A stretch of 64,000 nucleotides of DNA from Odontesthes bonariensis (Eukaryota > Chordata > Actinopteri > Atheriniformes > Atherinopsidae). The position numbers were made by a program, and so were the translations under genes. Positions 1,490-64,000 of the stretch are shown here, piece after piece. The notes below the pieces were generated by a model. That model was given only the letters and a program-made list of their open reading frames with translations, had not been told where the DNA came from and did no database searches. Every line of letters starts with the position of its first letter. Within the stretch, counting starts at the first letter, position 1. The stretch spans positions 35,207,711 to 35,271,710 of the forward strand of contig NC_134507.1 of NCBI RefSeq assembly GCF_027942865.1, in the 5' to 3' direction.

Positions 1490-1612
1490 TGTGTTCAGGG
1501 TCCCTGCTATAGAAGTCCAACTTCTGACAGCTGTTCTGAGAACAAGCTGGGGCCCAATAGGATTCCTGTATTAGTTAGTAAAAGAAGGAATCGAAAACAA
1601 TCAACCTGCTGG

Positions 1613-28910: not shown

Positions 28911-29575
28911 CAATCAATCAAATCAAATCAATCAAATTTAATTTATATAGCCCTTTACAATCACCAACTGGTACTCAAAGTGCTTTACAACAGGATAAAA
29001 AAACAACAATACGTAAAACAAAACATAAAACACGATGCAAAAATGGTAGAAGTGCTAAAAGTGCTAAAAGTGATGCAGGGCATTAAAAGCCTTCCACAAG
29101 TGCAATAAAAATTAATTGAATAAAATTTGTATAAAATTAAGATAATTAGAGCAGAAAGAATGAGCATAGTGGCCCTAATCAGAGTTGGAACGCCAGTCTA
29201 AAAAGGTGGGTCTTAAGCTTCGATTTAAAAAGGCCGAGATCAGTGATGGTGCGGATATCAGGGGGCAGTTTGTTCCACAGTCTAGGAGCAGCAATGGCAA
29301 AGGAACGATCACCCCACTGCTTAGATCTCGACCTTGGGACCTCTAAAAGAAGCTGACCTGAAGAGCGCAGGGTTCTACCACAGTTGCGAAAAGTTAAAAT
29401 GTCTGACAGATAAGAAGGTGCCAAGCCATTAGTGGCGTAAAAAACAAACAACAGGAGTTTAAAATCGATTCTGAATCGTACTGGAAGCCAATGAAGAGAC
29501 GATAGCACAGGAGTAATGTGTTCGCGCCTTGAAGTGTCCGTTAAAAATCGGGCAGCAATACTCATACTCAATACT
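28911..29575 (-). mobile_element. L2-like LINE, 3' fragment
   Basis: On the minus strand 29571-29179 reads REHITPVLSSLHWLPVRFRI...LWNKLPPDIR...LKTHLFRLAF, the C-terminus of L2-type ORF2. It is followed by a 3' UTR and a tail of ATTTGATTGATT words (28911-28940 region). It is 5'-truncated, as is usual for LINE insertions. The motif HITPVL.SLHWLPV is shared with the L2 copy at 330-4696, but the sequence is diverged. Confidence 0.8.
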
Positions 29576-30529: not shown

Positions 30530-32773
30530 GTTAAGTGTAAAGAATGTCATGTATTACCACCACTGTGACTTTTATTCCTTTAAACCAGCGGTCATCAACC
30601 TTTTTCAGCCCAACCTCTACATGGTGTTTAAGTGAACAACTTGGACAAGACTCTGGTTCCTTCCACCATTTAGAAATATTGTAGCTCAGGTTCCTTTTCA
30701 GAGTTTCATCATGACAAAAAGAATTAGTGAAAGAGCAAAAAGCAAGAGTTTACTGCTTAAAAAGCTGAACGTGTGCAGAACACATCAGAGCACAGTGCTG
30801 ATAGCTGAGGGCACTTATAAACGCACCCTCAGCGTTCACGTTTGATCTGTGATATTGAGACCTGTGTGGCTCGGTCTGTCCAGGTCCAGTTAGAATATGT
30901 TGGTTAGCGTAGGTTAGCTTAGATAAATCTTGTGTGAACTTCAAAAGGATCTAAGTCTTCTTCCTCTCTGTCATTGCAGAAACATGGAGCCCAAGAGGGA
31001 TCCAGATGCCACTGCTGTAAGGACTGTGGGAAAGTTATCAAACGATCAAATCTGAGGTATCATCAGAGGCTTCATACAGGAGAGAAGCCATACAGCTGTG
31101 GTCAGTGTGGGGCAGCTTTCACTAGATTATCTGATCTAAAGAAACACCAACGTAGTCACACAGGAGAGAAACCGTTCAGCTGTGGTCAGTGTGGGGCAGC
31201 TTTCACTAGATTACCTGATCTAAAGAAACACCAACGTAGTCACACAGGAGAGAAACCGTTCAGCTGTGGTCAGTGTGGGGCAGCTTTCACTTCATTAGGT
31301 AATCTAAAGAGACACCAACGTATACACACAGGAGAGAAACCTTTCAGCTGTGGTCAGTGTGGGGCAGCTTTCACTCAATTAGGTAATCTAAAGACACACC
31401 AACGTATACACACAGGAGAGAAACCGTTCAGCTGTGGTCAGTGTGGGGCAGCTTTCACTAGATTAGGTAATCTAAAGAGACACCAACGTATTCACACAGG
31501 AGAGAAGCCGTTCAGCTGTGACCAGTGTGGGGCAGTTTTCACTGCATTAGGTAATCTAAAGACACACCAACATATTCATACAGGAGAGAAGCCGTTCAGC
31601 TGTGACCAGTGTGGGGCAGTTTTCACTGCATTAGGTAATCTAAAGACACACCAACATATTCATACAGGAGAGAAGCCGTTCAGCTGTGGTCAGTGTGGGG
31701 CAGCTTTCACTCAGTTTGGTAATCTAAAGACACACCAACGTATACACACAGGTGAGAAGCCGTTCAGCTGTGACCAGTGTGGGGCAGCTTTCACTAGATT
31801 AGGTAATCTAACGACACACCAACATATTCATACAGGAGAGAAGCCATACAGCTGTGGTCAGTGTGGGGCAGCTTTCACTGCATTAGGTAATCTAAAGACA
31901 CACCAACATATTCATACAGGAGAGAAGCCGTTCAGCTGTGGTCAGTGTGGGGCAGCTTTCACTCAGTTTGGTAATCTAAAGACACACCAACGTATACACA
32001 CAGGAGAGAAGCCTTTCAGCTGTGGTCAGTGTGGGGCAGCTTTCACTAGATTAGGTAATCTAACGACACACCAACATATTCACACAGGAGAGAAACCTTT
32101 CATCTGTGGTCAGTGTGGGGCAGCTTTCACTGGATTAGGTCGTCTAAAGAGACACCAACGTAGTCACACTGCAGAGAAATGATTGGCTTAAATCAACAAC
32201 AATTTTTATGGCAGATAAGCAAACATTCACCTGAGAGCAGCTACAGGAACTACCAATCAGAAGCCTTGCATTTGTTCAGATTAAAAATCTTATGTATCCT
32301 CTGTATTTCATTGTTCTGCAGTTCATTAAAGATCAGATGTTAACTTTTCTCATGCTTTTCCTGTTCTTGCTACACAGATATTTTTGAAGAAAATGTGTGT
32401 TTGGTTACGAGGGAAAGTTGACCCTTATCATCTTCCCCAAAGACCCAGGAATCTTTAACTCAGTCTGAAAAAGGTTTGGAGTTGTTCCCTGTACTTCCCA
32501 GACAGCTGTATGATGCTCATGACTGAAGCTGAAAGTTAAGTCTGCTCCAACACTAAAAGGGCACGAGGCTCAACTTCAAGCTGTGAAACTCTTTCAAATG
32601 TCTGTTGTGTTGGAATCAGACGTGTGAACAGATTTTAGTCCAAACGCCATGGCTGCACTGAGGGAAAAGGCAGCTAAGCAAGCTAACGGTACTTTGAATT
32701 GAACCGTTTAACACGAGAAAGCTGAACTGATCTGTTTGTTGCTTCTACAACTGCTCAGTTACTCACACAATCA
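30530..32773 (+). repeat. Right arm of the inverted duplication
   Basis: Matches 7942-10091 in opposite orientation over its whole length apart from the number of finger repeats and scattered changes. Its outer edge lies at ACTCACACAATC near 32773. Confidence 0.85.
30980..32182 (+). CDS. C2H2 zinc-finger protein, terminal exon (14 fingers), right copy
   Basis: Begins after the acceptor TCTGTCATTGCAG (30979) in phase 0 and ends at TGA 32180-32182. It encodes KHGAQEGSR, a divergent first finger (HCCKDCGKVIKRSNLRYHQ) and thirteen further Kruppel-type fingers with HTGEKP linkers. Helices vary more than in the left copy: position -1 is Arg, Ser, Gln, Ala or Gly, and position 3 is Asp, Asn or Arg. 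Fingers 8-10 (ALGNLKTH, QFGNLKTH, RLGNLTTH) are repeated as 11-13, a tandem gain of about 252 bases. The last linker reads HTAEK. There is no ATG in this exon, so upstream exons are needed; 25782-26284 is a candidate. Presumed nuclear DNA-binding protein; target unknown. Confidence 0.85.
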   Translation, partial: KHGAQEGSRCHCCKDCGKVIKRSNLRYHQRLHTGEKPYSCGQCGAAFTRLSDLKKHQRSHTGEKPFSCGQCGAAFTRLPDLKKHQRSHTGEKPFSCGQCGAAFTSLGNLKRHQRIHTGEKPFSCGQCGAAFTQLGNLKTHQRIHTGEKPFSCGQCGAAFTRLGNLKRHQRIHTGEKPFSCDQCGAVFTALGNLKTHQHIHTGEKPFSCDQCGAVFTALGNLKTHQHIHTGEKPFSCGQCGAAFTQFGNLKTHQRIHTGEKPFSCDQCGAAFTRLGNLTTHQHIHTGEKPYSCGQCGAAFTALGNLKTHQHIHTGEKPFSCGQCGAAFTQFGNLKTHQRIHTGEKPFSCGQCGAAFTRLGNLTTHQHIHTGEKPFICGQCGAAFTGLGRLKRHQRSHTAEK

Positions 32774-46368: not shown

Positions 46369-46400
<32 letters not shown>

Positions 46401-46595
46401 AAGTTAACCAGCTTGGGCTGCTGCTGATTGGTTGGCAGACACCTCTGTTTCTATTGGCTCTCAGTCTCCATGTTTCTGATCCTGGACCTGCTGAGATGTC
46501 CCAGGCCATTGTTGGCTTTGATCCTCATACGTTTAACTTTGTCCTGAGCGGGCGGGAGTGCAAAGTTGTACCATCTGAAACGGCTGAAGAGTGCA
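46331..46595 (+). repeat. Left edge of the small-RNA array, rearranged spacer
   Basis: Sequence of the 5S-downstream spacer (TGCATGTCTTTTGTTGAAAC onward, compare 47287-47408) is interrupted by a CA microsatellite (46369-46396). It then jumps at GTCCTGA to the distal U2 upstream sequence (GCGGGCGGGAGTGCAAAG, compare 48132). About 720 bp of monomer, including the antisense 5S and U5, is missing between them. Confidence 0.8.
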
Positions 46596-46783
46596 GCGGC
46601 TTCTCGGCCTTTTGGCTAAGATCAAGTGTAGTATCTGTTCTTATCAGTTTAATATCTGATATGTCCTCTATATGAGGACTACATATTAAATGGATTTTTA
46701 GGCACAGGGGTTGAAAAAGGGGCTTGCTCCGTTCACTCCACGCATCGACCCGGTACTGCAGTGCTGCCGGGAACGGTGCACTC
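46596..46783 (+). ncRNA. U2: U2 snRNA, copy 1, full length but promoter-less
   Basis: Matches vertebrate U2 from the 5' region CTTCTCGGCCTTTTGGCTAA through the branch-site-recognition GTAGTA, the Sm site region GATTTTTAG and the terminal GAACGGTGCAC, 188 nt. The first bases read GCGGC instead of ATCGC because distal promoter sequence (ending AGCGG) is fused directly to about U2 nucleotide 5. About 105 bp of proximal promoter, including the PSE-like element present upstream of copies 2 and 3, is gone. It is therefore probably not transcribed normally. It differs from the other copies at a few sites (GATATGTCC, TGCTGCCGG). Confidence 0.9.
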
Positions 46784-47150
46784 TTCCCAACTCTTGTGAA
46801 ATAACAAAACCAGCGGTACATGGTGGTAGTTTCAGGGAGCCGTTGTATTCTGACTTCTAAAATAGGACTATAATCTTTAGAAAAGACGCAGTTTATGAGC
46901 ACGTCGTGGGACTGAGCTTCCCTGGTTTCCCTGTATGACCATGAACACCAAACTACACACAGAGAACAGAGGAGCTTGACAGACACACACTAAGTTATCT
47001 GAGAGTCCCATTTTCAGCTGCAGAGAACAATCACATCAGGGAAGTCGACGTGCAGGCTCAACATCAGCCTCTCAAGCCAACTCTCTGGTGAAATAGGGGA
47101 AACGTATGGTTCCAGCACCTATGTAACACATATTTGTCACAGGGATTGTG
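46784..47150. other. Array spacer between U2 and 5S
   Basis: Non-coding spacer repeated at 53872-54238 and 62924-63291 with only a few differences. Minus-strand open frames here run into the antisense of U2 and are not genes. Confidence 0.85.
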
Positions 47151-47268
47151 GCTTACGGCCACACCGCCCTGAACACGCCCGATCTCGTCCGAACTCGGAA
47201 GCCAAGCAGGGTCGGGCCAGGTTAGTACTTGGATGGGAGACCGCTTGGGAATACCAGGTGCTGTAAGC
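47151..47268 (+). rRNA. 5S rRNA: 5S rRNA, copy 1
   Basis: GCTTACGGCCACACCGCCCT through GGTGCTGTAAGC, 118 nt, followed by a T-run as RNA polymerase III terminator. The C box (GGATGGGAGACCGC) is intact. The A box reads AAGCCAAGCAGGGTC, one change from the usual AAGCTAAGCAGGGTC, and GGGCCAGG replaces GGGCCTGG. It may be functional or a variant type. Its product is the 5S component of the large ribosomal subunit. Confidence 0.92.
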
Positions 47269-47491
47269 ATTTTTCTCTCTTCTCTCTGCATGTCTTTTGT
47301 TGAAACATCTGATGATCACCCTGTGATCCATCTTGCTGATCCTGGATCTGCTAAGGTGTCCCAGGTCACGGTTGCCTTTGATCCTCATACATTTAACTTT
47401 GTCCTGACAAAGGAGCAGTTCCAAAAAGTCAAACAGGGACTGCCTTTGCATTTGACGCAGTCAAACTGCATGCGCCTGGAGAAGCCAAAAG

Positions 47492-47567
47492 GCTTACAGC
47501 ACCTGGTATTCCCAGGCGGTCTCCCCATCCAAGTACTAACCAGGCCCGACTCTGCTTAGCTTCTGAG
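47492..47567 (-). pseudogene. 5S rRNA: Truncated antisense 5S, copy 1
   Basis: The minus strand matches 5S from about nucleotide 43 to the 3' end (AGAAGCTAAGCAGAGTCGGG to GTGCTGTAAGC). The 5' part is missing. Its A box (AAGCTAAGCAGAGTC) and GGGCCTGG are nearer the usual vertebrate form than the sense gene 230 bp away, so it derives from a different 5S type. Confidence 0.88.
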
Positions 47568-47874: not shown

Positions 47875-47994
47875 GTACTCTGGTTTCTCTTCATAACGTA
47901 CAAGTCTTTCGCCTTTTACTAAAGACTTCCGTGGAGAGCAGCATTAATGAGTTGTTTCTATTTTTGGAAGGCTTTACCTTTGCGGGTGAAGCCC
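47875..47994 (+). ncRNA. U5: U5 snRNA, copy 1
   Basis: GTACTCTGGTTTCTCTTCAT starts the gene, loop I is the invariant CGCCTTTTACTAAAG, the Sm-type site lies in CTATTTTTGG, and a 3' hairpin (GGCTTTACC / GGGTGAAGCC) ends it at about 120 nt. U5 aligns exon ends in the spliceosome through loop I. Upstream lies a PSE-like element, downstream the U2 promoter region of the next unit. Same strand as U2 and 5S. Confidence 0.92.
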
Positions 47995-48292
47995 ATTCTG
48001 TCTGTGCAAAGGAAATCTTCTTGCTGTGCCAAGTGACTTCTCGGAGTAGAGTCACCTTATTTGTTGAGACCGTGCCCATGTTCAAAGCTGGAGCGCTAAA
48101 TTGTTTGTTGTTTGAATGGTGCTCAGTGGAGCGGGCGGGAGTGCAAAGTTGTACCATCTGAAACGGCTGAAGAGTGCTCACTGCAGCGGGTGGGCGGAGG
48201 TGCAAAGTGACGCTTTGTAGGCAAAAAAAGAGCACCGCCACAAGTGCGCATTGTGCCAGGAAGGGCGCTCGGACGTGAAACAGTGGAGGGTT
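47995..48292 (+). promoter_or_regulatory. U2 upstream region, unit 2
   Basis: Spacer and promoter preceding U2. GCACCGCCACAAGTGCGC at 48232-48249 (about -61 to -44) resembles the U5 PSE candidate (CACCG...AAG.TG). GGGCGGGAGTG and GGGTGGGCGGAGG at 48134-48201 are GC-box-like words. The same region precedes U2 copy 3 at 55083-55380. Confidence 0.5.
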
Positions 48293-48751
48293 ATCGCTTC
48301 TCGGCCTTTTGGCTAAGACTGCGATCGCCTCCTTTGGGTGGACTATTTTATGCCGTTTCGGCATTAAATTTTTCTCGCTTTGGAGGTTCTTTTTTGCGTT
48401 CGATCAAAGTATTCCAAGTCGTTTGTAGTTGGAGTTCTTTGCCTTTAAATTTTCTTGTATTACCCTTTTTTTTTTTCCAGGTTTTTGCTTTTTGAACGAG
48501 TTTCAGCTGAAACAGGGTCGGTGTTGGTGTTCCATTTTTTTAGAGGAAGGTAAGTATCCATTTTTAGTACCTTTTAATCCACTTTTTACTCTTTTATTGG
48601 GCTTTTAGTGTGATATTTATTTTTGTTCTTTTAAGCATTTTATTTAAAAACTGTTTGTGGTGCCTCCATCATGTCGGCAAACTATGCTGGCATGAGGAGG
48701 CACCACAGCGCTAGATTTTTATTTAAAGAAAAAGAAGGAAAGCTTATAGAG

Positions 48752-49758
48752 ATGTCCTAATTGGACTTCTCTCGGAAGCTAATTCAAAACATATTGAACT
48801 TCAAGCCAGACGATTTGAATTGCATCCTGTCGTTGCCTTTTAACAAAGGTTTCGATGTAAGTTTTCGCACTGCAGCTTTGCTGCAGGAGTTTTGGATGAG
48901 ATTTGGTAATGTGCAAGCCCAGTTTTCTGCGTTTACTGTTGAGAAACTTACTGACAATACTCTGAAGACAGTAATTGTCAGAATGTTCAATGAAATGGTG
49001 AACGCAGAAGATATCTGTATATGGTTGGGAAGATTCTGCACTGTTAAAGGCCAGGCAATGAAGGTGAGGGATGTCGATGGCATCTGGAACTGCGCCTGGA
49101 GGGTCCCCATCCAACAATGGCAAGACCCCCAGGGCTTCCAGGGCCTGAAACAATCTTTTGCCAACAAACTGAAATCCTTAAAAACACGGAAGGAAATGGA
49201 GGGCAGACCGAGGCAGTTAACGAGCTACTTGAAACAGCTGGGCTGGAAAATTCAAACTTCCCGCCAAAATCCCTGAATGGTGGACAGCAGTCAGGTGAGG
49301 CCGAGGAGGGGGAGGGGCCTGCTACACCCCCACCAATGGAGAGTTCTGGAGAGGAGGAGGAGGAGGTGGTGCAGGCAGAAGGCGGAGCTAGTTCAGAATG
49401 TGAAGAAGTCCAATCACAGGATGATAGCGAGGATGCCTCCCTCCCAGATGCCCAGCAAACAAAGAGGCTTGCATCAGAATTGTCCTCTGATTCTCCTATA
49501 GTCTCAGAGAAGAGGGGAAGAGCTGGGACTACCTCAGACAGTTCATCTGTGGAGGAGCCCAGAGTCTTCCCCTCCAATTCACCAAATGAGGTCTCTTTTT
49601 TAAATGTAGTTCTGCAATCAACCCCTAGAGACTCAAAGTTTAACAAAACCTTGCAACAGAGGCCAACCCCCAGAGTCCGACCGGGGAATAGAGCTCAACA
49701 CCCTCGCCTCTCACCTGTAGAAGTGAAGGAAGAGCTCCGTTCACAAGAAATTACATAA
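48752..49758 (+). pseudogene. Keno-1 ORF1, defective (zinc knuckles deleted)
   Basis: The ATG at 48752 is followed by TCC and a TAA (48758-48760), where Keno-2 has AGA. Up to GFQGL it parallels Keno-2 ORF1. Then 225 bp present in Keno-2 are missing (between about 49148 and 49153), which removes all three CCHC knuckles without shifting the frame. A further 1-base loss near 49180 shifts the frame, so the acidic Ser-rich tail continues in another frame to a TAA at 49758. ORF1 normally binds the element RNA; this copy cannot supply it. Confidence 0.85.
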
Positions 49759-49807
49759 CTGCTTTTAAGACATTTTAAATGTTTTAACCCTCATTTAGTC
49801 TTTTAAG

Positions 49808-52800
49808 ATGTCATACCTGTTGTTTTTAACCATACTCATGACACTCACTCTCTCAACTATTAATGTGAGAAGTGTAAAGTCGAAATTTAGAGCCCAGAGT
49901 GTTTTATCCTTTCTTAGTTCTTTTAAGTCAGATGTTCTTTTAATACAGGAATGCGGCCTACCGTTTTTAAAGCACTACAGACAGTGGGAGGAGATGTGGC
50001 CACAGACATCATTGTGGAGTGGATCCAACCAAAACAAAAATGACGGAGTGGCCATTTTGATCAAAAACCCTCAGGTTCTGGTGAAGGGCAGCACTGTGGT
50101 GAGAGACGGACGGGCACTTTTAGCACATTTGACTTTTATGGGACAAGATTTTAACCTCTTAAATATTTATGGCTTTAACGAAAAAAATGACCGGTATGAC
50201 CTTTTAGAAGACCTGCAGTCCCACATGCTAGGTAGGGCACCACTAGTTTTAGGGGGTGATTTTAACTGTATTTTAAGCAGGAGTGACAGAAAAAGAGCAG
50301 GGGAATTTTTTAAAGTTGACAAAACATTGGATTTATTACAGGGCATATGCAAGGATTTTAAACTTCAGGACTGTTTTAGGACCATGCATCCCAGAAAGGA
50401 GGGCTTCACCTGGTTCAGTGGTGATGGCACCAGAGCCTCTCGTATAGACTACCTTTTTACACGGGACTGCCCACCAACCGATGCTAGATTGACCCCCGTG
50501 TTCTTTTCTGATCACCTAATGCTTTCCTGCACCCTATCACTCTCTTCGGGTGTGACTTCCGGAAGTGGTCTGTGGAAACTAAACTGCTCCCTTTTAAAAG
50601 AAAATGAAATAGTTAGTCAGTACCGGGAGCAGTACCACGAGTGGCAGACCCTTCAAGACTTTTACGATACACGTGCACACTGGTGGGAAATGGTGAAGGA
50701 AAAGACCCAGACTTTCTTTAGACAGGCAGGTAGGAGAAAAAAGAATAGGGAAAACAGAAGCATGATGGGACTGCAGAAGCGACTACAGCGCTATTTTAAA
50801 TTAAACCAACAAGGGATGGATTTTAATGATGAAATTAAACAAGTGAAAACAGAGATGTCGATTTTAGCAGATATTAAAAGTAAGGGTGTCATTTTAAGAA
50901 GCAGGGAACGAGAAATAGAGGAAGGAGAGAAGTGCACAAGGTATTTTTTTAAGAAAATTGTGAATAAAGGGGGGGCCATTTTAAAGCTAAGAAAAGAGAA
51001 CGGCTGCACAGTTGATTCAATGGAAGAAATTAAAGAAGCTGTTGAACAATTTTATCGTGAACTGTACGAACAAAAACCTGTTGAAATGGACACCATGACA
51101 GAAGTTTTAAATTTCATAGAAAAAACAGTAAAAGACAGTGTGCTTTTAACCCAAGATTTTACAATTTCAGAGTTAAATAAATGTTTTACAAATTTTAAGA
51201 AAGGGAAGTCCCCAGGACAAGATGGACTTCCCTTGGAATTTTATTTGACCTTTTGGGATATTTTAGCACCTGACTTGTTTACTGTTTTTATGGAATTTGA
51301 GCAACTTGAGCGACTTCCTGACAGTTTTAGAGCAGGGATAGTGACTCTTCTTCACAAAAAAAAAGACAAGACTGACTTGAAGAATTGGAGACCGATTACA
51401 CTTTTAAACTTTGACTGTAAACTTTTTAGTAAACTTTTAGCTTCACGTATGTCCTTGTTTTTAGAAGACCTGATTCACCCGGATCAAGCCTGTGCCATCC
51501 CGGGGAGGAAGATAACCGACAGCCTCGTACTGATCCGAGACACCATCTGTTATGCGAGAGACAGAAACATTTGGCTAGCAGTCCTAAATTTAGACTTTGA
51601 GAAAGCCTTTGATCGGGTCTCGCACCAGTACCTTTTCCAGGTACTGCCAAAAATGGGGTTCCCAGAAAGGTTTATAGCTTGGGTGGGTCTGCTGTACCGG
51701 GGCATTACCAGCAAATTCCTTGTTAACGGGCATCTGACAAAAGCAGTAAACATCCACTGCGGTGTCCGTCAGGGTTGTCCGTTATCTGCCCTCCTCTACA
51801 TCATCTGTGTGGAACCACTGGCACAGAGCTTGAGAAGGGACCACCGAATCAATGGGGTGAGAGTCCCGGGGAGCGGGGGACTATCGACAAAGTGTGTTTT
51901 ATATATGGACGACGTGAACATTTTATGTACAGACCTAATATCCATCAATAGGACTCTGGACTTGACTGACTGGTATGGACGGGCCTCTGGGGCAAAACTA
52001 AACAGAAACAAGACCCAAGCCCAATTTTACGGGCCATGGACAGCGACTGAGACTGCAGGACTCCCCGTGACTATAACCCAGACAAAACAGAAAATACTGG
52101 GGATTAATTTTGACAAGGAAGGGGGAGGGACATCAAACTGGCCAGACGTGGTAGGGAAAGTAAAGCAAAGACTAGGATACTGGGGACTTAGAGGACTGAC
52201 CATTGAAGGAAAGGTTTTAATCATCAAAGCCGTGATTTTACCTTTGCTTTTACTAATCAGTTCTGTTTTTATCCCACCTAGAAAAGTGCTTTTAGACCTG
52301 GACCGAGCCATTTTTTATTTTCTGTGGGGCTCCAAGTGGGAAAGACTGAGGAGAGATGTAATGAAGAAACAAAAAGAGAAAGGAGGAAAAGGAGTGCCTG
52401 ATTTTTATTTGTTTTTAGGAAGCAGATACACTACACTGCACATCCTACAGGCCACAGACCCATCCGGAAACCCCAAAACTAAAGCAATGACACGATTCTG
52501 GATGGGTTCTTACCTCAGAAGACTGAAGATTTTACCCACCGACCTAAAAGTGCCTGTGTCTTTTAGCCTGCCACCATCCTATGCTTTTATCCAGACGTTC
52601 TTAAAGCATTTTAACTTGGAGGCAGAGGAGTTGCATGTTTTAACAAACCACCGCTCTTTGATTTCTGTTGTGCAGGAGCGGGAACCAGTGAGTCCGGTGC
52701 GTGGGCTCGCGTTCGGTGAGCCCTCAACAGTTTGGTGCAACGTCAACCATTCCGCTTTCCCAAACAGACTCCGGGACCTGTCGTGGATGGTGGCTCATGA

Positions 52801-53338
52801 GATCCTCCCAGTCAGGTCCGTTATGCACTCCCGGGGCATGTCAGCGATCTCAACCTGCCCGCGACCTGGTTGTGGCGCGCCCGAGTCGGTGAGGCACCTG
52901 CTCTGGGAGTGCAGCGCTGCTGCAGACCAGTGGGCAACAGCCGGCTCCTTGCAATTCCCGTACTTGCCAGCAAGGGAGGTCCTCACAGCACAACTCGTGC
53001 TCTATGGGGTGAGCCAAACAAAAATAAAAAAGAATGACTTTGCCAAGCAGTGGCTCACCCTAGCCGCTATGAAAGACGCCATGTGGACCTCCAGGAACTT
53101 GCTGGTGAGGAAGCGCATGCAGATCCCCCCCGTGGCTGTGATCCGGATGGCCGCAGCGGCGGCTCAAGCGGCCGGAGCTGCAGGCGGCGGGCCTAGGACA
53201 CATCCACAAAGAAGAATCGCCTCTGTGCCCATTCGGATGAAGGAGCCGGAGCTACACACAAAAAGGTCAAAGCAGCGACGGCCTGGCTCTCCGGGTGAGG
53301 CAGGTGGGAAGGAGCAACAGGGTGGGGATCTCCGCTGA
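49808..53338 (+). CDS. Keno-1 ORF2: endonuclease and reverse transcriptase, intact frame
   Basis: A protein of 1176 aa from ATG 49808 to TGA. The AP-type endonuclease (residues about 15-240) has NVRS, Glu48 in LIQEC, GDFN at 150-153, Asp214 in SRIDYLF and SDH at 234-236. The reverse transcriptase (about 480-780) has [27 protein letters not shown] and catalytic YMDD at about 699-702. Near 1017-1035 a C-terminal cysteine-histidine cluster (CPRPGC...H....C) follows, as in Tx1/L1-group proteins. All key residues that I can read are present. It would nick U2 DNA and prime cDNA from it. Confidence 0.9.
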
Positions 53339-53871
53339 GCTCCACGACAGGATCCCGAGAGACCTACTGTTTGGGGGAGCGAAATGAGTTTCCCTGGGTA
53401 GGGACTCACTGCGCTCCTGCACAAAAAATGGACTTGGAAGAGAGCATTTTAACTAATGCACTCCTTTTTAAAGACACTCAATACAAACTGCTACTCGCAT
53501 GAGAACTACTTCACATGTAACTTTTTACCTTAGACAACATTGACCTTATCTGTAATATCCCATGGAAAACTTGTTTTATTGTTGTTTGTTTTAAATGTGG
53601 TTATACAGATTACACTTATTTATTGATGTTTTTATTCATAGGTAAAACATATGTCTTAAATATGAAGTTTTTATGAAAATGTGATGTATTAGTGTCAATA
53701 AATTTTTTTCAAAAGAAAAAATCTGTTCTTATCAGTTTAATATCTGATACGTCCTCTATATGAGGACTACATATTAAATGGATTTTTAGGCACAGGGGTT
53801 GAAAAAGGGGCTTGCTCCGTTCACTCCACGCATCGACCCGGTACTGCAGTGCCGCCGGGAACGGTGCACTC

Positions 53872-54238
53872 TTCCCAACTCTTGTGAAATAACAAAACCA
53901 GCTGTACATGGTGGTAGTTTCAGGGAGCCGTTGCATTCTGACTTCTAAAATAGGACTATAATCTTTAGAAAAGACGCAGTTTATGAGCATGTCGTGGGAT
54001 TGAGCTTCCCTGGTTTCCCTGTATGACCATGAACACCAAACTACACACAGAGAACAGAGGAGCTTGACAGACACACACTAAGTTATCTGAGAGTCCCATT
54101 TTCAGCTGCAGAGAACAATCACATCAGGGAAGTCGACGTGCAGGCTCAACATCAGCCTCTCAAGCCAACTCTCTGGTGAAATAGGGGAAACGTATGGTTC
54201 CAGCACCTATGTAACACATATTTGTCACAGGGATTGTG
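53872..54238. other. Array spacer between U2 and 5S, unit 2
   Basis: Near-identical to 46784-47150. Confidence 0.85.
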
Positions 54239-54356
54239 GCTTACGGCCACACCGCCCTGAACACGCCCGATCTCGTCCGAACTCGGAAGCCAAGCAGGGT
54301 CGGGCCAGGTTAGTACTTGGATGGGAGACCGCTTGGGAATACCAGGTGCTGTAAGC
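54239..54356 (+). rRNA. 5S rRNA: 5S rRNA, copy 2
   Basis: Identical in sequence to copy 1 as far as I can read, including the A-box variant and the T-run terminator. It lies 7088 bp after copy 1, which equals one 1697-bp monomer plus Keno-1 minus the 11-bp U2 deletion. Confidence 0.92.
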
Positions 54357-54579
54357 ATTTTTCTCTCTTCTCTCTGCATGTCTTTTGTTGAAACATCTGA
54401 TGATCACCCTGTGATCCATCTTGCTGATCCTGGATCTGCTAAGGTGTCCCAGGTCACGGTTGCCTTTGATCCTCATACATTTAACTTTGTCCTGACAAAG
54501 GAGCAGTTCCAAAAAGTCAAACAGGGACTGCCTTTGCATTTGACGCAGTCAAACTGCATGCGCCTGGAGAAGCCAAAAG

Positions 54580-54655
54580 GCTTTCAGCACCTGGTATTCC
54601 CAGGCGGTCTCCCCATCCCAGTACTAACCAGGCCCGACTCTGCTTAGCTTCTGAG
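54580..54655 (-). pseudogene. 5S rRNA: Truncated antisense 5S, copy 2
   Basis: Same fragment as at 47492-47567 with single-base differences (GCTTTCAGC at its 3' terminus, CATCCCAGT). Confidence 0.88.
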
Positions 54656-54962
54656 ATAAAACTCTGGCTTTTTAGTCTGCGAAAAGAGAGTGAAAGTGAA
54701 CTCCACTTTGAGATGGCTCTGGGATTGGGCCGACTGGGAGAATTGCTTGAAAAAAAGCTCTACACCCAATGAGCGGTCAGAACAAAGCCTCAAGACCCCT
54801 AGTCTTTTGCACAGAGTAAAAGACAAAGCAGCCATTGAATAGGGCCCGATTGTTCCTACCTGGTCGGCCGAGGAGCGAGCGTCTCAACCAAGCAAAGCTC
54901 ACCGTGGGGAAGGTGGCTATACCAACTAGCCTGATCCACTGCTCCCGCAGTGTCAAATTCTC

Positions 54963-55082
54963 GTACTCTGGTTTCTCTTCATAACGTACAAGTCTTTCGC
55001 CTTTTACTAAAGACTTCTGTGGAGAGCAGCATTAATGAGTTGTTTCTATTTTTGGAAGGCTTTACCTTTGCGGGTGAAGCCC
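54963..55082 (+). ncRNA. U5: U5 snRNA, copy 2
   Basis: As copy 1, with a T for C in the strand after loop I (GACTTCTGTGG against GACTTCCGTGG). The upstream PSE-like element at 54898-54916 is unchanged. Confidence 0.92.
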
Positions 55083-55380: not shown

Positions 55381-55571
55381 ATCGCTTCTCGGCCTTTTGG
55401 CTAAGATCAAGTGTAGTATCTGTTCTTATCATTTTTACTCTTTTATTGGGCTTTTAGTGTGATATTTATTATTGTTCTTTTAAGCATTTTATTTAAAAAC
55501 TGTTTGTGGTGCCTCCATCATGTCGGCAAACTATGCTGGCATGAGGAGGCACCACAGCGCTAGATTTTTAT

Positions 55572-57542
55572 TAGTGATGGCAAAACGAGGCTTTTTGAAG
55601 CATTGAATCATTTTGAACCATTGTGTCATAAAGTGGTTCACTACCCGAAGCTTCATTCAATTCCCTTGGGTGACATCTACTGGCGTAGCGATTGTTGCAC
55701 CATATGAAGCCCTGCGAATGTGATGCATATAATAACACTATAATAAAACTTATGTATGTATGTGTGTTGTATATATTTTGTAGGTTTGTACATAGGTTTG
55801 TAGTACCTTATTAAAGATTGATTAATTTACCCATGAAATAATAATTTGCCCTCTCCGGGTCGGGAATGAGATCCTTCCCCAAGTGGAGGAGTTCAAGTAA
55901 CTCTGGGTCTTGTTCACGAGTGAGGGACAAATGCAGAGGGAGGTCGACAGGCGGATCGGTGCGCCATCAGCAGTGCTGCGGGCTCTGCACCGGCATGGTG
56001 AAGGAGCTGAGCCAGAAGGCAAAGCTCTCGATTTTAGAACCGCTGCTCCTCCGCAACGAGAAGAGTCAGATCAGGTGGCTCGGGCATCTGGTTAGGATGC
56101 CTCCTGGACGCCTGGTGAGACACGTCCCACTGGGAGGAGGCCCCGGGGAAGACCCCGGACACGTTGGATCTCTGGCAGGGGAACGCCTCGGGGTCCCCCC
56201 AGAAGAGCTGGAGGAAGTGGCCGGGGACAGGGACGCCGGGGTTTCTCTGCTTAAGCTGCTGCCCCCGCGACCCGACCCCCGGACCAGCGGAAGAAGATGG
56301 ATGGATGGATGGAATAATAATTTAAAAACAATGTGAAAATGTTTGGTTTGTCATTCATATTTTCTTTGGGAGTGTGCTTGGTGTAATAAAGAGGGTGCTT
56401 GTGTTACTTCAGGTATTTTAATTCAAGAAAAGTAGTTTTTGCACAGTGGAAGGACTCAAACGGTTTCTTTTTTTTTTTTTAGTCAATTTCTCCAACTTTG
56501 GAAAATACTCTGTCACAGGTGTAGCACTCGTGTTAGCCTTTGCGTTAGAACTACAGTCTATGCTACTAAGACCTAGGTTCTGAGGAGTAATAAAGAGTAT
56601 GGTTGTAGTAAACAACTGACAGGTTTATTGCAGCAATACACATAAACAAAATATATATAGAATATCACAATTTGAGTGACTGGAAAAATAACCCAAATAA
56701 AATAGAGCTCTTTTCTTACAAATAAAATAAAATAAAATAAAATAAAAGTACCAAAAAACAGGGAATAATTTGTTTCCAAACCCTGGTTCCGTTGTTCAGT
56801 TCTTGTTCTAGTAAATGTTCTTTGTGTTTCTTGTGTTATTTCAAATCTCTTTTGTACACTACCCGGGTAGGTATAAGTGAAAGTGTATTTCCAGCTGGGA
56901 AATCCTGAGAGTTCCAAGATGAATTCAAGATGAATCCCTGTAGCAGCTGGCCAGTCTACTAACAGGAATCTTCAGAGTATCGTCCATGGGTCTGGCTCGC
57001 CATCGAAGACTCCACTCAATCACGGGTCTCAAAAAAACCAGTCTACACATTTTGTGCAGAACAACAAATAAAATTACTTAATAACTTCAACACATATCAA
57101 ATCACCATGAATGAAATGATGTCATGTATCAATCGCTGCATCAAGTTTACAATTTTTCTAACTTGTAAATGGAGATAATCTCCCAAAGAAATCATTTTTA
57201 ACCGTTTTTAGACATGACTTCTTCGATGGTTGCTCCATGAGAGAATAATCCAAAACTCCGAATATCAAAAAATGAGAGCTGTTCGTAACGTATAATACGT
57301 GTAGAACGGGGACATGAACCGGGGCTTCAGCCATCTTGAATACACTGAATCGCGGAAAATGTTCAAAGCTCCGCACATCAACTCGAAGCAGTCAGCTGAC
57401 TCGGTCTGAATGAAGCAGTGAAGTGGTTCAAACGTCATCAGTGACGTCACAAGAAGCAAGCTCCGGCCCACTGCTTCACTATAACTACCCTGTCGAGTTT
57501 GAAGCGTGCTACGGAGCTTCGGGGTTGGAGGTAACATCACTA
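55572..57542. mobile_element. hAT element in the Keno-2 5' UTR
   Basis: Ends TAGTGATG with its complement CATCACTA, flanked by a perfect 8-bp duplication ATTTTTAT (55564-55571 and 57543-57550). GAAGC/GCTTC and GTGGTTCA words recur near both ends. No transposase is readable, so it is non-autonomous. It contains a Rex3 fragment and a TAAAA pentamer run (about 56718-56745). Confidence 0.9.
55848..56312 (+). mobile_element. Rex3-like (RTE clade) LINE 3' fragment
   Basis: Starts CTCTCCGGGTCGGGAATGAG and ends in GATGGATGGATGG, with CGGGCATCTGGTTAGGATGC and AAGCTGCTGCCCCCGCGACC between, the 3' end of Rex3/RTE elements. It is flanked by an 11-bp duplication AATAATAATTT (55837-55847 and 56313-56323). 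An internal part is missing near 56035 (GATTTTAGAACCGCTGCTCC). 5'-truncated. Confidence 0.85.
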
Positions 57543-57579
57543 ATTTTTATTTAAAGAAAAAGAAGGAAAGCTTATAGAG

Positions 57580-58809
57580 ATGTCCAGATTGGACTTCTCT
57601 CGGAAGCTACTTCAAAATGTATTGAACTTTAAGCCAGACGATTTGAATTGCATCCTGACATTGCCTTTTAACAAAGGTTTTGATGTAAGTTTTCGCACTG
57701 CAGCTTTGCTGCAGAAGTTTTGGATGAGATTTGGTAATGTGCAAGCTCAGTTTTCTGCGTTTACTGTTGAGAAACTTACTGACAATACTCTGAAGACAGT
57801 AATTGTCAGAATGTTCAATGAAATGGTGAACGCAGAAGATATCTGTATATGGTTGGGAAGATTCTGCACTGTTAAAGGCCAGGCAATGAAGGTGAGGGAT
57901 GTCGACGGCATCTGGAACTGCGCCTGGAGGGTCCCCATCCAACAATGGCAAGACCCCCAGGGCTTCCAGGGCCTGAGACATCTCCCATCAATGATTGTCT
58001 TGGGAGAAAACAGAGGCTACATCCACTACCAGGGACAGCCCAAACTCTGCCGCAAATGTGGGGAGCACGGGCACCTGGTGGAGGCCTGCACGAAGGTGTT
58101 TTGTGGCAAATGTAGAGGAATCGGTCACACCTTCGAAGAGTGTACAAATGGCAGAAAGTGCAATCTCTGTGGAGAATCAAACCACCTCTTCAGAGATTGC
58201 CCAAAATCTTTTGCCAACAAATTGAAATCCAAAAAAACGCGAGAAGGAAATGGAGGGCAGACCGAGGCAGTTAACGAGCTACTTGAAACAGCTGGGCTGG
58301 AAAATTCAAACTTCCCGCCAAAATCCCTGAATGGTGGACAGCAGTCAGGTGAGGCCGAGGAGGGGGAGGGGCCTGCTACACCCCCACCAATGGAGAGCTC
58401 TGGAGAGGAGGACGAGGTGGTGCAGGCAGAAGGCGGAGCTAGTTCAGAATGTGAAGAAGTCCAATCACAGGATGATAGCGAGGATGCCTCCCTCCCCGAT
58501 GCCCAGCAAACAAAGAGGCTTGCATCAGAATTGTCCTCTGATTCTCCTATAGTCTCAGAGAAGAGGGGAAGAGCTGGGACTACCTCAGACAGTTCATCTG
58601 TGGAGGAGCCCAGAGTCTTCCCCTCCAATTCACCAAATGAGGTCTCTTTTTTAAATGTAGTTCTGCAATCAACCCCTAGAGACTCAAAGTTTAACAAAAC
58701 CTTGCAACAGAGGCCAACCCCCAGAGTCCGACCGGGGAATAGAGCTCAACACCCTCGCCTCTCACCTGTAGAAGTGAAGGAAGAGCTCCATTCACAAGAA
58801 ATTACATAA
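57580..58809 (+). CDS. Keno-2 ORF1: CCHC zinc-knuckle protein, intact frame
   Basis: A protein of 409 aa from ATG 57580 to TAA. The N-terminal 130 residues have no motif I can name. Residues about 157-210 hold three C-X2-C-X4-H-X4-C knuckles ([42 protein letters not shown]), which bind nucleic acid in ORF1 or Gag-like proteins. An acidic, Ser- and Pro-rich region follows (about 245-370), then a basic tail ([11 protein letters not shown]). It ends 49 bp before the ORF2 start. It is the complete counterpart of the damaged Keno-1 ORF1. Confidence 0.88.
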
Positions 58810-58858
58810 CTGCTTTTAAGACATTTTAAATGTTTTAACCCTCATTTAGTCTTTTAAG

Positions 58859-61800
58859 ATGTCATACCTGTTGTTTTTAACCATACTCATGACACTCACT
58901 CTCTCAACTATTAATGTGAGAAGTGTAAAGTCGAAATTTAGAGCCCAGAGTGTTTTATCCTTTCTTAGTTCTTTTAAGTCAGATGTTCTTTTAATACAGG
59001 AATGCGGCCTACCATTTTTAAAGCACTACAGACAGTGGGAGGAGATGTGGCCACAGACATCATTGTGGAGTGGAACCAACCAAAACAAAAATGACGGAGT
59101 GGCCATTTTGATCAAAAACCCTCAGGTTCTGGTGAAGGGCAGCACTGTGGTGAGAGACGGACGGGCACTTTTAGCACATTTGACTTTTATGGGACAAGAT
59201 TTTAACCTCTTAAATATTTATGGCTTTAACGAAAAAAATGACCGGTATGACCTTTTAGAAGACCTGCAGTCCCACATGCTAGGTAGGGCACCACTAGTTT
59301 TAGGGGGTGATTTTAACTGTATTTTAAGCAGGAGTGACAGAAAAAGAGCAGGGGAATTTTTTAAAGTTGACAAAACATCGGTTTTATTACAGGGCATATG
59401 CAAGGATTTTAAACTTCAGGACTGTTTTAGGACCATGCATCCCAGAGAGGAGGGCTTCACCTGGTTCAGTGGTGATGGCACCAGAGCCTCTCGTATAGAC
59501 TACCTTTTTACACGGGACTGCCCACCAACCGATGCTAGATTGACCCCCGTTTTCTTTTCTGATCACCTGATGCTTTCCTGCACCCTATCACTCTCTTCGG
59601 GTGTGACTTCCGGAAGTGGTCTGTGGAAACTAAACTGCTCCCTTTTAGAAGAAAATGAAATAGTTAGTCAGTACCGGGAGCAGTACCACGAGTGGCAGAC
59701 CCTTCAAGACTTTTACGATACACGTGCACACTGGTGGGAAATGGTGAAGGAAAAGACCCAGACTTTCTTTAGACAGGCAGGTAGGAGAAAAAAGAATAGG
59801 GAAAACAGACGCATGATGGGACTGCAGAAGCGACTACAGCGCTATTTTAAATTAAACCAACAAGGGATGGATTTTAATGATGAAATCAAACAAGTGAAAA
59901 CAGAGATGTCGATTTTAGCAGATATTAAAAGTAAGGGTGTCATTTTAAGAAGCAGGGAACGAGAAATAGAGGAAGGAGAGAAGTGCACAAGGTATTTTTT
60001 TAAGAAAATTGTGAATAAAGGGGGGGCCATTTTAAAGCTAACAAAAGAGAACGGGTGCACAGTTGATTCAATGGAAGAAATTAAACAAGCTGTTGAACAA
60101 TTTTATCGTGAACTGTACGAACAAAAACCTGTTGAAATGGACACCATGACAGAAGTTTTAAATTTCATAGAAAAAACAGTAAAAGACAGTGTGCTTTTAA
60201 CCCAAGATTTTACAATTTCAGAGTTAAATAAATGTTTTACAAATTTTAAGAAAGGGAAGTCCCCAGGACAAGATGGACTTCCCTTGGAATTTTATTTGAC
60301 CTTTTGGGATATTTTAGCACCTGACTTGTTTACTGTTTTTATGGAATTTGAGCAACTTGACCGACTTCCTGACAGTTTTAGAGCAGGGATAGTGACTCTT
60401 CTTCACAAAAAAAAAGACAAGACTGACTTGAAGAATTGGAGACCGATTACACTTTTAAACTTTGACTGTAAACTTTTTAGTAAACTTTTAGCCTCACGTA
60501 TGTCCTTGTTTTTAGAAGACCTGATTCACCCGGATCAAGCCTGTGCCATCCCGGGGAGGAAGATAACCGACAGCCTCGTACTGATCCGAGACACCATCTG
60601 TTATGCGAGAGACAGAAACATTCGGCTAGCAGTCCTAAATTTAGACTTTGAGAAAGCCTTTGATCGGGTCTCGCACCAGTACCTTTTCCAGGTACTGCAA
60701 AAAATGGGGTTCCCAGAAAGGTTTATAGCTTGGGTGGGTCTGCTGTACCGGGGCATTACCAGCAAATTCCTTGTTAACGGGCATCTGACAAAAGCAGTAA
60801 ACATCCACTGCGGTGTCCGTCAGGGTTGTCGGTTATCTGCCCTCCTCTACATCATCTGTGTGGAACCACTGGCACAGAGCTTGAGAAGGGACCACCGAAT
60901 CATTGGGGTGAGAGTCCCGGGGAGCGGGGGACTATCGACAAAGTGTGTTTTATATATGGACGACGTGAACATTTTATGTACAGACCTAATATCCATCAAC
61001 AGGACTCTGGACTTGACTGACTGGTATGGAAGGGCCTCTGGGGCAAAACTAAACAGAAACAAGACCCAAGCCCAATTTTACGGGCCATGGACAGCGAATG
61101 AGACTGCAGGACTCCCCGTGACTATAACCCAGACAAAACAGAAAATACTGGGGATTAATTTTGACAAGGAAGGGGGAGGGACATCAAACTGGCCAGACGT
61201 GGTAGGGAAAGTAAAGCAAAGACTAGGATACTGGGGACTTAGAGGACTGACCATTGAAGGAAAGGTTTTAATCATCAAAGCCGTGATTTTACCTTTGCTT
61301 TTACTAATCAGTTCTGTTTTTATCCCACCTAGGAAAGTGCTTTTAGACCTGGACCGAGCCATTTTTTATTTTCTGTGGGGCTCCAAGTGGGAAAGACTGA
61401 GGAGAGATGTAATGAAGAAACAAAAAGAGAAAGGAGGAAAAGGAGTGCCTGATTTTTATTTGTTTTTAGGAAGCAGATACACTACACTGCACATCCTACA
61501 GGCCACAGACCCATCCGGAAACCCCAAAACTAAAGCAATGACACGATTCTGGATGGGTTCTTACCTCAGAAGACTGAAGATTTTACCCACCGACCTAAAA
61601 GTGCCCGTGTCTTTTAGCCTGCCACCATCCTATGCTTTTATCCAGACGTTCTTAAAGCATTTTAACTTGGAGGCAGAGGAGTTGCATGTTTTAACAAACC
61701 ACCGCTCTTTGATTTCTGTTGTGCAGGAGCGGGAACCAGTGAGTCCAGTGCGTGGGCTCGCGTTCGGCGAGCCCTCAACAGTTTGGTGCAACGTCAACCA

Positions 61801-62389
61801 TTCCGCTCTCCCAAACAGACTCCGGGACCTGTCGTGGATGGTGGCTCATGAGATCCTCCCAGTCAGGTCCGTTATGCACTCCCGGGGCATGTCAGCGATC
61901 TCAACCTGCCCGCGACCTGGTTGTGGCGCGCCCGAGTCGGTGAGGCACCTGCTCTGGGAGTGCAGCGCTGCTGCAGACCAGTGGGCAACAGCCGGCTCCT
62001 TGCAATTCCCGTACTTGCCAGCAAGGGAGGTCCTCACAGCACAACTCGTGCTCTATGGGGTGAGCCAAACAAAAATAAAAAAGAATGACTTTGCCAAGCA
62101 GTGGCTCACCCTAGCCGCTATGAAAGACGCCATGTGGACCTCCAGGAACTTGCTGGTGAGGAAGCGCATGCAGATCCCCTCCGTGGCTGTGATCCGGATG
62201 GCCGCAGTGGCGGCTCAAGCGGCCGGAGCTGCAGGCGGCGGGCCTAGGACACATCCACAAAGAAGAATCGCCTCTGTGCCCATTCGGATGAAGGAGCCGG
62301 AGCTACACACAAAAAGGTCAAAGCAGCGACGGCCTGGCTCTCCGGGTGAGGCAGGTGGGAAGGAGCAACAGGGTGGGGATCTCCGCTGA
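58859..62389 (+). CDS. Keno-2 ORF2: endonuclease and reverse transcriptase
   Basis: 1176 aa, the same length as Keno-1 ORF2 and different at about 17 residues by eye. Endonuclease residues (LIQEC, GDFN, SRIDYLF, SDH) and the YMDD centre are intact. The RT block that reads VRQGCPLS in Keno-1 is VRQGCRLS here (about 60820-60843); the Pro is strongly conserved in reverse transcriptases, so activity may be reduced. The C-terminal Cys-His cluster is unchanged. Confidence 0.9.
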
Positions 62390-62923
62390 GCTCCACGACA
62401 GGATCCCGAGAGACCTACTGTTTGGGGGAGCGAAATGAGTTTCCCTGGGTAGGGACTCACTGCGCTCCTGCACAAAAAATGGACTTGGAAGAGAGCATTT
62501 TAACTAATGCACTCCTTTTTAAAGACACTCAATACAAACTGCTACTCGCATGAGAACTACTTCACATGTAACTTTTTACCTTAGACAACATTGACCTTAT
62601 CTGTAATATCCCATGGAAAACTTGTTTTATTGTTGTTGTTTTTAAATGTGGTTATACAGATTACACTTATTTATTGATGTTTTTATTCATAGGTAAAACA
62701 TATGTCTTAAATATGAAGTTTTTATGAAAATGTGATGTATTAGTGTCAATAAATTTTTTTCAAAAGAAAAAAAATCTGTTCTTATCAGTTTAATATCTGA
62801 TACGTCCTCTATATGAGGACTACATATTAAATGGATTTTTAGGCACAGGGGTTGAAAAAGGGGCTTGCTCCGTTCACTCCACGCATCGACCCGGTACTGC
62901 AGTGCCGCCGGGAACGGTGCACT

Positions 62924-63291
62924 CTTCCCAACTCTTGTGAAATAACAAAACCAGCGGTACATGGTGGTAGTTTCAGGGAGCCGTTGTATTCTGACTTCTA
63001 AAACAGGACTATAATCTTTAGAAAAGACGCAGTTTATGAGCACGTCGTGGGACTGAGCTTCCCTGGTTTCCCTGTATGACCATGAACACCAAACTACACA
63101 CAGAGAACAGAGGAGCTTGACAGACACACACTAAGTTATCTGAGAGTCCCATTTTCAGCTGCAGAGAACAATCACATCAGGGAAGTCGACGTGCAGGCTC
63201 AACATCAGCCTCTCAAGCCAACTCTCTGGTGAAATAGGGGAAACGTATGGTTCCAGCACCTATGTAACACATATTTGTCACGGGGACTGTG
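62924..63291. other. Array spacer between U2 and 5S, unit 3
   Basis: Near-identical to the spacers of units 1 and 2. Confidence 0.85.
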
Positions 63292-63409
63292 GCTTACGGC
63301 CACACCGCCCTGAACGCGCCCGATCTCGTCCGAACTCGGAAGCCAAGCAGGGTCGGGCCAGGTTAGTACTTGGATGGGAGACCGCTTGGGAATACCAGGT
63401 GCTGTAAGC
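63292..63409 (+). rRNA. 5S rRNA: 5S rRNA, copy 3
   Basis: As the other copies, with GAACGCGCCC in place of GAACACGCCC and a longer T-run after GTAAGC. The A-box variant AAGCCAAGCAGGGTC is shared by all three. Confidence 0.92.
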
Positions 63410-63632
63410 TTTTTTCTCTCTTCTCTCTGCATGTCTTTTGTTGAAACATCTGATGATCACCCTGTGATCCATCTTGCTGATCCTGGATCTGCTAAGGTGT
63501 CCCAGGTCATGGTTGCCTTTGATCCTCATACATTTAACTTTGTCCTGACAAAGGAGCAGTTCCAAAAAGTCAAACAGGGACTGCCTTTGCATTTGACGCA
63601 GTCAAACTGCATGCGCCTGGAGAAGCCAAAAG

Positions 63633-63708
63633 GCTTACAGCACCTGGTATTCCCAGGCGGTCTCCCCATCCAAGTACTAACCAGGCCCGACTCTGCTTAG
63701 CTTCTGAG
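63633..63708 (-). pseudogene. 5S rRNA: Truncated antisense 5S, copy 3
   Basis: Same as copy 1. The U5 gene expected at about 64016 lies just beyond the end of the window; its upstream region runs to the last base. Confidence 0.88.
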
Positions 63709-64000
63709 ATAAAACTCTGGCTTTTTAGTCTGCGAAAAGAGAGTGAAAGTGAACTCCACTTTGAGATGGCTCTGGGATTGGGCCGACTGGGAGAATTGCT
63801 TGAAAAAAAGCTCTACACCCAATGAGCGGTCAGAACAAAGCCTCAAGACCCCTAGTCTTTTGCACAGAGTAAAAGACAAAGCAGCCATTGAATAGGGCCC
63901 GATTGTTCCTACCTGGTCGGCCGAGGAGCGAGCGTCTCAACCAAGCAAAGCTCACCGTGGGGAAGGTGGCTATACCAACTAGCCTGATGCACTGCTCCCG

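Follow-up and report, generated by a model that had tools for sequence, protein, structure and literature searches.

Why do two LINEs lie at the same base of neighbouring U2 genes, and what became of the genes that received them? The question is raised by a 64,000-nucleotide stretch of contig NC_134507.1 of Odontesthes bonariensis, which was analysed as a whole and is called the window here. An earlier note had described two Keno LINEs inserted within the GTAGTA hexamer of U2. Our data very probably reflect two U2-specific non-LTR retrotransposons of the Keno kind, of APE type, each of which entered one of two neighbouring U2 genes of an array in an insertion of its own.

The U2–5S–U5 array

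Rfam models at gathering score gave nine matches in the window, four of them to U2, and outlined an array of U2, 5S and U5 genes that begins at 46596 and reaches almost to the end of the window. Three U2 genes lie in this array: copy A is unsplit, and copies B and C are each split by a LINE.

46596-46786, +, U2 copy A, unsplit (Rfam, 179.4 bits)
48293-48318, +, U2 copy B, 5′ part, U2 1-26, with the LINE directly after it
53721-53874, +, U2 copy B, 3′ part, U2 38/39 to end, the site of the earlier note
55381-55431, +, U2 copy C, 5′ part, U2 1-51, GTAGTA intact
62774-62927, +, U2 copy C, 3′ part, U2 38/39 to end
47151-47269, 54239-54357 and 63292-63410, + (first copy), 5S rRNA genes of the array (Rfam)
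47875-47987 and 54963-55075, + (first copy), U5 snRNA genes of the array (Rfam)

Three of the Rfam U2 matches (53698-53874, 62749-62927 and 55381-55557) come from split genes and are stretched into the LINEs by the full-length model, and the 5′ part of copy B scores below gathering (25.1 vs 46 bits). Judged from their sequences, the split genes B and C would be unable to yield normal U2 RNA. Copy A begins with GCG rather than ATC, and differs from the empty site obtained by joining the flanks of copy C at five nucleotides (1-3, 67 and 170). The region upstream of copy A (46400-46600) is rearranged and consists of two spacer segments that flank U5 elsewhere. Because of this start and the rearranged upstream region, copy A, though unsplit, may be inactive too.

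All three array spacers seen carry a truncated 5S on the minus strand (5S 44-118, 89-92% identical; 47492-47567, 54580-54655 and 63633-63708). As far as the linkage passages of PMC3464664 go, U2–U5 linkage is called common in the fishes studied and is named in Drosophila as well, soles have a U1–U2–U5 linkage, and 5S lies apart from U2–U5 in the fish studied there. By its linkage, the array would thus probably come from a fish.

A shared 3′ junction in U2

The A-rich 3′ ends of both LINEs meet U2 at nucleotide 38/39, with A38 at 53721 and 62774, and both elements are in sense orientation relative to U2. Directly after the A-rich ends, starting at these two positions, stands ATCTGTTCTTATC, which occurs also in the unsplit copy A (46633) and in the 5′ U2 part of copy C (55418). 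When one mismatch is allowed, the whole window holds five matches to ATCTGTTCTTATC, four exact ones on the + strand and one with a single mismatch on the − strand (15360), vs a mean of 0.10 and a largest count of 1 in 100 shuffles. The junctions at 53721 and 62774 thus confirm that two LINEs with A-rich 3′ ends sit at one base of U2.

Each junction reads CAAAAG, a run of As and then TCTGTTCTTATCAG; with A38 included, the run has six As in copy B and eight in copy C, two longer. Because U2 nucleotide 38 is itself an A after an A-rich tail, a cut at 37|38 is indistinguishable from one at 38|39 in both copies. The earlier placement of the junction at U2 nucleotide 38 therefore stands in that both elements end at the same base, and its precise side of A38 can be read either way. 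The numbering was right: counted on the joined empty site of copy C, GTAGTA is U2 33-38, and the hexamer has the same numbers in human U2. The two 3′ junctions are likely independent, and if so, the probability that the same base of the 191-nt U2 is hit twice is about 1/191.

In the passages of PMC4640811 and PMC6136364 that deal with this target, 38|39 is the printed U2 site of Keno, and also of Utopia, a distinct kind of element. The Keno 3′ target is given there as TCTGTTCTTATCAGTTTAAT, placed 37 nt into U2 (PMC6136364), and the legend of Fig. 1 in PMC4640811 has the branch-site-binding sequence of U2 marked together with the junctions. As the junction at 38|39 matches the printed Keno target, the 3′ junction of our two elements is an already published Keno insertion site.

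The elements and their family

48319-53720, +, Keno copy B: long 5′ UTR, broken ORF1, open ORF2, A-rich 3′ end
55432-62773, +, Keno copy C: start 264 bp deeper in the 5′ UTR than that of copy B, hAT-like insertion, ORF1 and ORF2 open
49799-53338, +, ORF2 of copy B, 1179 aa stop to stop: Exo_endo_phos, RVT_1, zf-RVT (Pfam)
58850-62389, +, ORF2 of copy C, likewise 1179 aa between stops, with the same three Pfam domains
57580-58809, +, ORF1 of copy C, 409 aa from the first ATG: two ZCCHC3-type RNA-binding domains, CCHC zinc knuckles (Pfam)

Over their 3′ 4.6 kb, the two elements have an identity of about 99%. When the 3′ UTR, two pieces of 5′ UTR and both ORFs served as BLAST queries at E 1e-3, no further Keno copies turned up within the window, and the only extra match was a weak one of 46 bp inside copy C.

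In both ORF2s, Pfam places an APE-type endonuclease (Exo_endo_phos, 20-239) N-terminal to the reverse transcriptase (RVT_1, 521-770), and among its models it lists no additional nuclease at E 0.001. Both also carry GGDFNC, SDHLML and YMDD, presumably the catalytic motifs. In a PDB search, residues 16-876 of the copy C ORF2 aligned with the LINE-1 ORF2 protein (E 2e-85) and its endonuclease part with the LINE-1 endonuclease; LINE-1, R2 and reverse transcriptase-like chains were matched, with no Keno among these. The LINE-1 ORF2 protein is alike in its endonuclease–reverse transcriptase layout; no specificity for U2 genes is known of LINE-1.

Keno is described as a Tx1-type, U2-specific non-LTR retrotransposon of frogs, fish, lancelet and hydra, in sections of PMC4640811 and PMC6136364 that also give it a 3′ junction with downstream TCTGTTCTTATCAGTTTAAT and an APE-type endonuclease. 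Its 3′ junction at U2 38|39 is found in both window copies, with A38 ambiguous, and the APE-type endonuclease expected of Keno is present in both ORF2s. By target site and domain content, then, the elements are an ordinary example of the known Keno kind. Together with the sense orientation, the same two features uphold the earlier view that Keno-like LINEs split the U2 copies.

Utopia, which has a restriction-like endonuclease and uses the same 3′ site, has to be weighed here. According to the Utopia sections of PMC4640811, Utopia and Keno have identical U2 3′ flanks, and downstream U2 starts at nucleotide 39 in Phytophthora Utopia. However, in the same sections Utopia generally encodes a single protein whose endonuclease is restriction-like and C-terminal, and its target duplications are absent (arthropods) or 20 bp long (reptiles), vs 13 bp in copy C. 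Our elements have an N-terminal APE-type endonuclease in the ORF2 of both copies and a separate ORF1 with zinc knuckles, both of which speak against Utopia, and the probability that the elements are Utopia rather than Keno is negligible.

Pattern searches outside the window were made in viral and prokaryote collections, which are little informative for such elements: the ORF2 pattern had three matches and no relatives in viral contigs, and the A-rich end joined to U2 had none in viral contigs, as had a pattern two bases shorter in genome contigs.

Coding capacity and 5′ UTRs

The ORF2s of copies B and C differ at 29 of 3540 bp, by 12 synonymous and 17 non-synonymous changes. Over 786.7 synonymous and 2750.3 non-synonymous sites, this gives pS 0.0153, pN 0.0062 and a pN/pS of about 0.4, which, with such small counts, is compatible with a source lineage under purifying selection.

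The ORF1 of copy C matches both Pfam ZCCHC3 RNA-binding domains (E 4.1e-25 and 6.7e-17); one of its CCHC models is above the Pfam cut-off and the second just below. The Pfam matches suggest that Keno ORF1 and the cellular ZCCHC3 protein may have a common origin. Among the matches listed in a literature search on ZCCHC3 and retrotransposon domestication, none was about the origin of the protein as far as titles and opening lines of abstracts tell, and the copy C ORF1 had no match among PDB sequences at E 0.01. In copy B, ORF1 starts with an ATG at 48752, its third codon is a stop, and a stretch of about 226 bp that would include the zinc knuckles is missing.

Several features were seen in the 5′ UTRs. 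A near-perfect RNA hairpin is identical in both copies (48656-48707 and 55505-55556), with a folding energy of −42.4 kcal/mol and a z of −8.3 (folded from copy C); in copy B it lies 44 nt ahead of the ORF1 start codon. Rfam searched on 48280-48800, around the copy B hairpin, at E up to 1 gave nine matches, none at gathering score. Within 48465-48555, copy B also has a 3′-splice-site-like polypyrimidine-CAG stretch and, about 70 bp on, the 5′-splice-site consensus AAGGTAAGT (48547), one of five on the window's + strand, the strand scanned. The 5′ UTR of copy C contains a 1971-bp insertion (55572-57542), for which copy B is the empty site; its ends, TAGTGATG...CATCACTA, from which we take the name hAT-like, are bordered by an 8-bp duplication, ATTTTTAT.

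Different 5′ ends and the fate of the hexamer

55419-55431, +, target site duplication TCTGTTCTTATCA (U2 39-51), left copy
62775-62787, +, target site duplication TCTGTTCTTATCA, right copy

The 13-bp duplication around copy C is perfect, and joining the flanks restores a U2 of 191 nt. The copy B locus lacks a target duplication and has lost U2 27-37 (or 38), a loss of 11-12 nt, and with it the hexamer, of which at most A38 is left, depending on whether this A is assigned to the target. In the earlier note, the insertion had been thought to separate the last base of GTAGTA from the rest. This is contradicted in both genes: copy C keeps U2 1-51 with the hexamer on its 5′ side because of the 13-bp duplication of U2 39-51, and the 5′ part of copy B stops at nucleotide 26. 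The further idea of the note, that such a target ensures permanent homes, would be an argument from selection.

The elements themselves differ at this end too. Copy B carries 264 bp more 5′ UTR (48319-48582) than copy C, an alignment pairing 48585 with 55434, and U2 27-51 is present on the 5′ side of copy C and absent from that of copy B. Because of the additional 264 bp in B and of U2 27-51 found in C only, neither copy can be derived from the other by plain duplication. Differing 5′ ends thus argue for at least two insertions.

Target-primed reverse transcription is the established scheme for non-LTR elements, and the observed junctions, duplication and open endonuclease and reverse transcriptase frames can be read along its lines. 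The ORF2 endonuclease would nick the bottom strand opposite U2 38|39, and reverse transcription of the element RNA would begin at its A-rich 3′ end, primed by this nick. A top-strand cut 13 nt downstream, after nucleotide 51, would then give the duplication of copy C. For copy B, another kind of 5′ resolution, or a later change, may account for the loss of U2 27-37 (or 38). Both events would be separate at the 3′ end as well.

One insertion, two insertions or exchange

A shared 3′ junction might also be one event copied, if a Keno-bearing unit of the array was duplicated after a single insertion. Blocks 49152-54947 and 58205-64000 are indeed collinear and 99.0% identical over 5.8 kb, from the LINE through the junction, the U2 3′ part and 5S into the spacer. 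However, the 5′ junctions, 5′ UTR lengths and target outcomes differ between B and C, and the flanks point the same way. In a comparison of 1227 bp of flank among B, C and A, 16 sites were variable, with the patterns A|BC at three, B|AC at seven and C|AB at six, so B and C show no shared history apart from A. Summed from these patterns, the B and C flanks differ by 13 from each other, vs 10 and 9 from that of A, which has no LINE in its U2. A single insertion followed by duplication is hence very unlikely.

A closer alternative is that two insertions took place and that gene conversion or unequal crossing-over within ORF1 then made the 3′ part and junction common to both copies. Such a course has much in common with two separate insertions as proposed above and differs only in the origin of the second 3′ junction. 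Divergence between the copies falls from 13/558 (2.3%) in the 5′ block to 39/4558 (0.86%) in the rest of Keno (Fisher p 0.003), and the 3′ portion of Keno and the flank are about equally similar between B and C (ORF2 29/3540, flank 13/1227). Both would allow that exchange between array units carried one 3′ junction to both copies. However, the 5′ block covers few sites and the difference is a modest one: its first part, in the 5′ UTR, differs at 1/130 sites and its second, the end of the 5′ UTR with the ORF1 start, at 12/428 (deletion edge trimmed), and the flank is without B–C affinity. We therefore consider exchange somewhat unlikely, and continue to favour two separate insertions.

Other elements in the window

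Another LINE, at 1490-4486, has endonuclease and reverse transcriptase in an open frame of 998 aa, and a fragment 47% identical to it lies on the minus strand at 29188-29571. A search with its pattern (1490-4483) elsewhere gave eight matches and no relatives. In addition, a Pfam scan found a C2H2 zinc-finger array at 30938-32182 with repeat units of 84 bp, and DNA comparison placed DNA about 88-92% identical to it on the opposite strand at 8873-9697.

Meaning of the locus

In both split genes, the element stands in sense orientation after the upstream region of U2 and the start of the gene, 26 nt of it in copy B and 51 nt in copy C. The U2 snRNA promoter might thus drive transcription of U2–Keno chimeras, an idea that we hold tentatively and consider unlikely. 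The upstream region differs between B and C at 3/459 bp. If the idea were true, the target U2 gene would supply a promoter as well.

The target site and the parallel use of the same site by Utopia are already in print, in the passages of PMC4640811 and PMC6136364 cited above. What the present locus offers is a clear Keno-type pair, with both ORF2s open, that displays two 5′ outcomes, a 13-bp target duplication in one U2 gene and a loss of 11-12 nt in the other.
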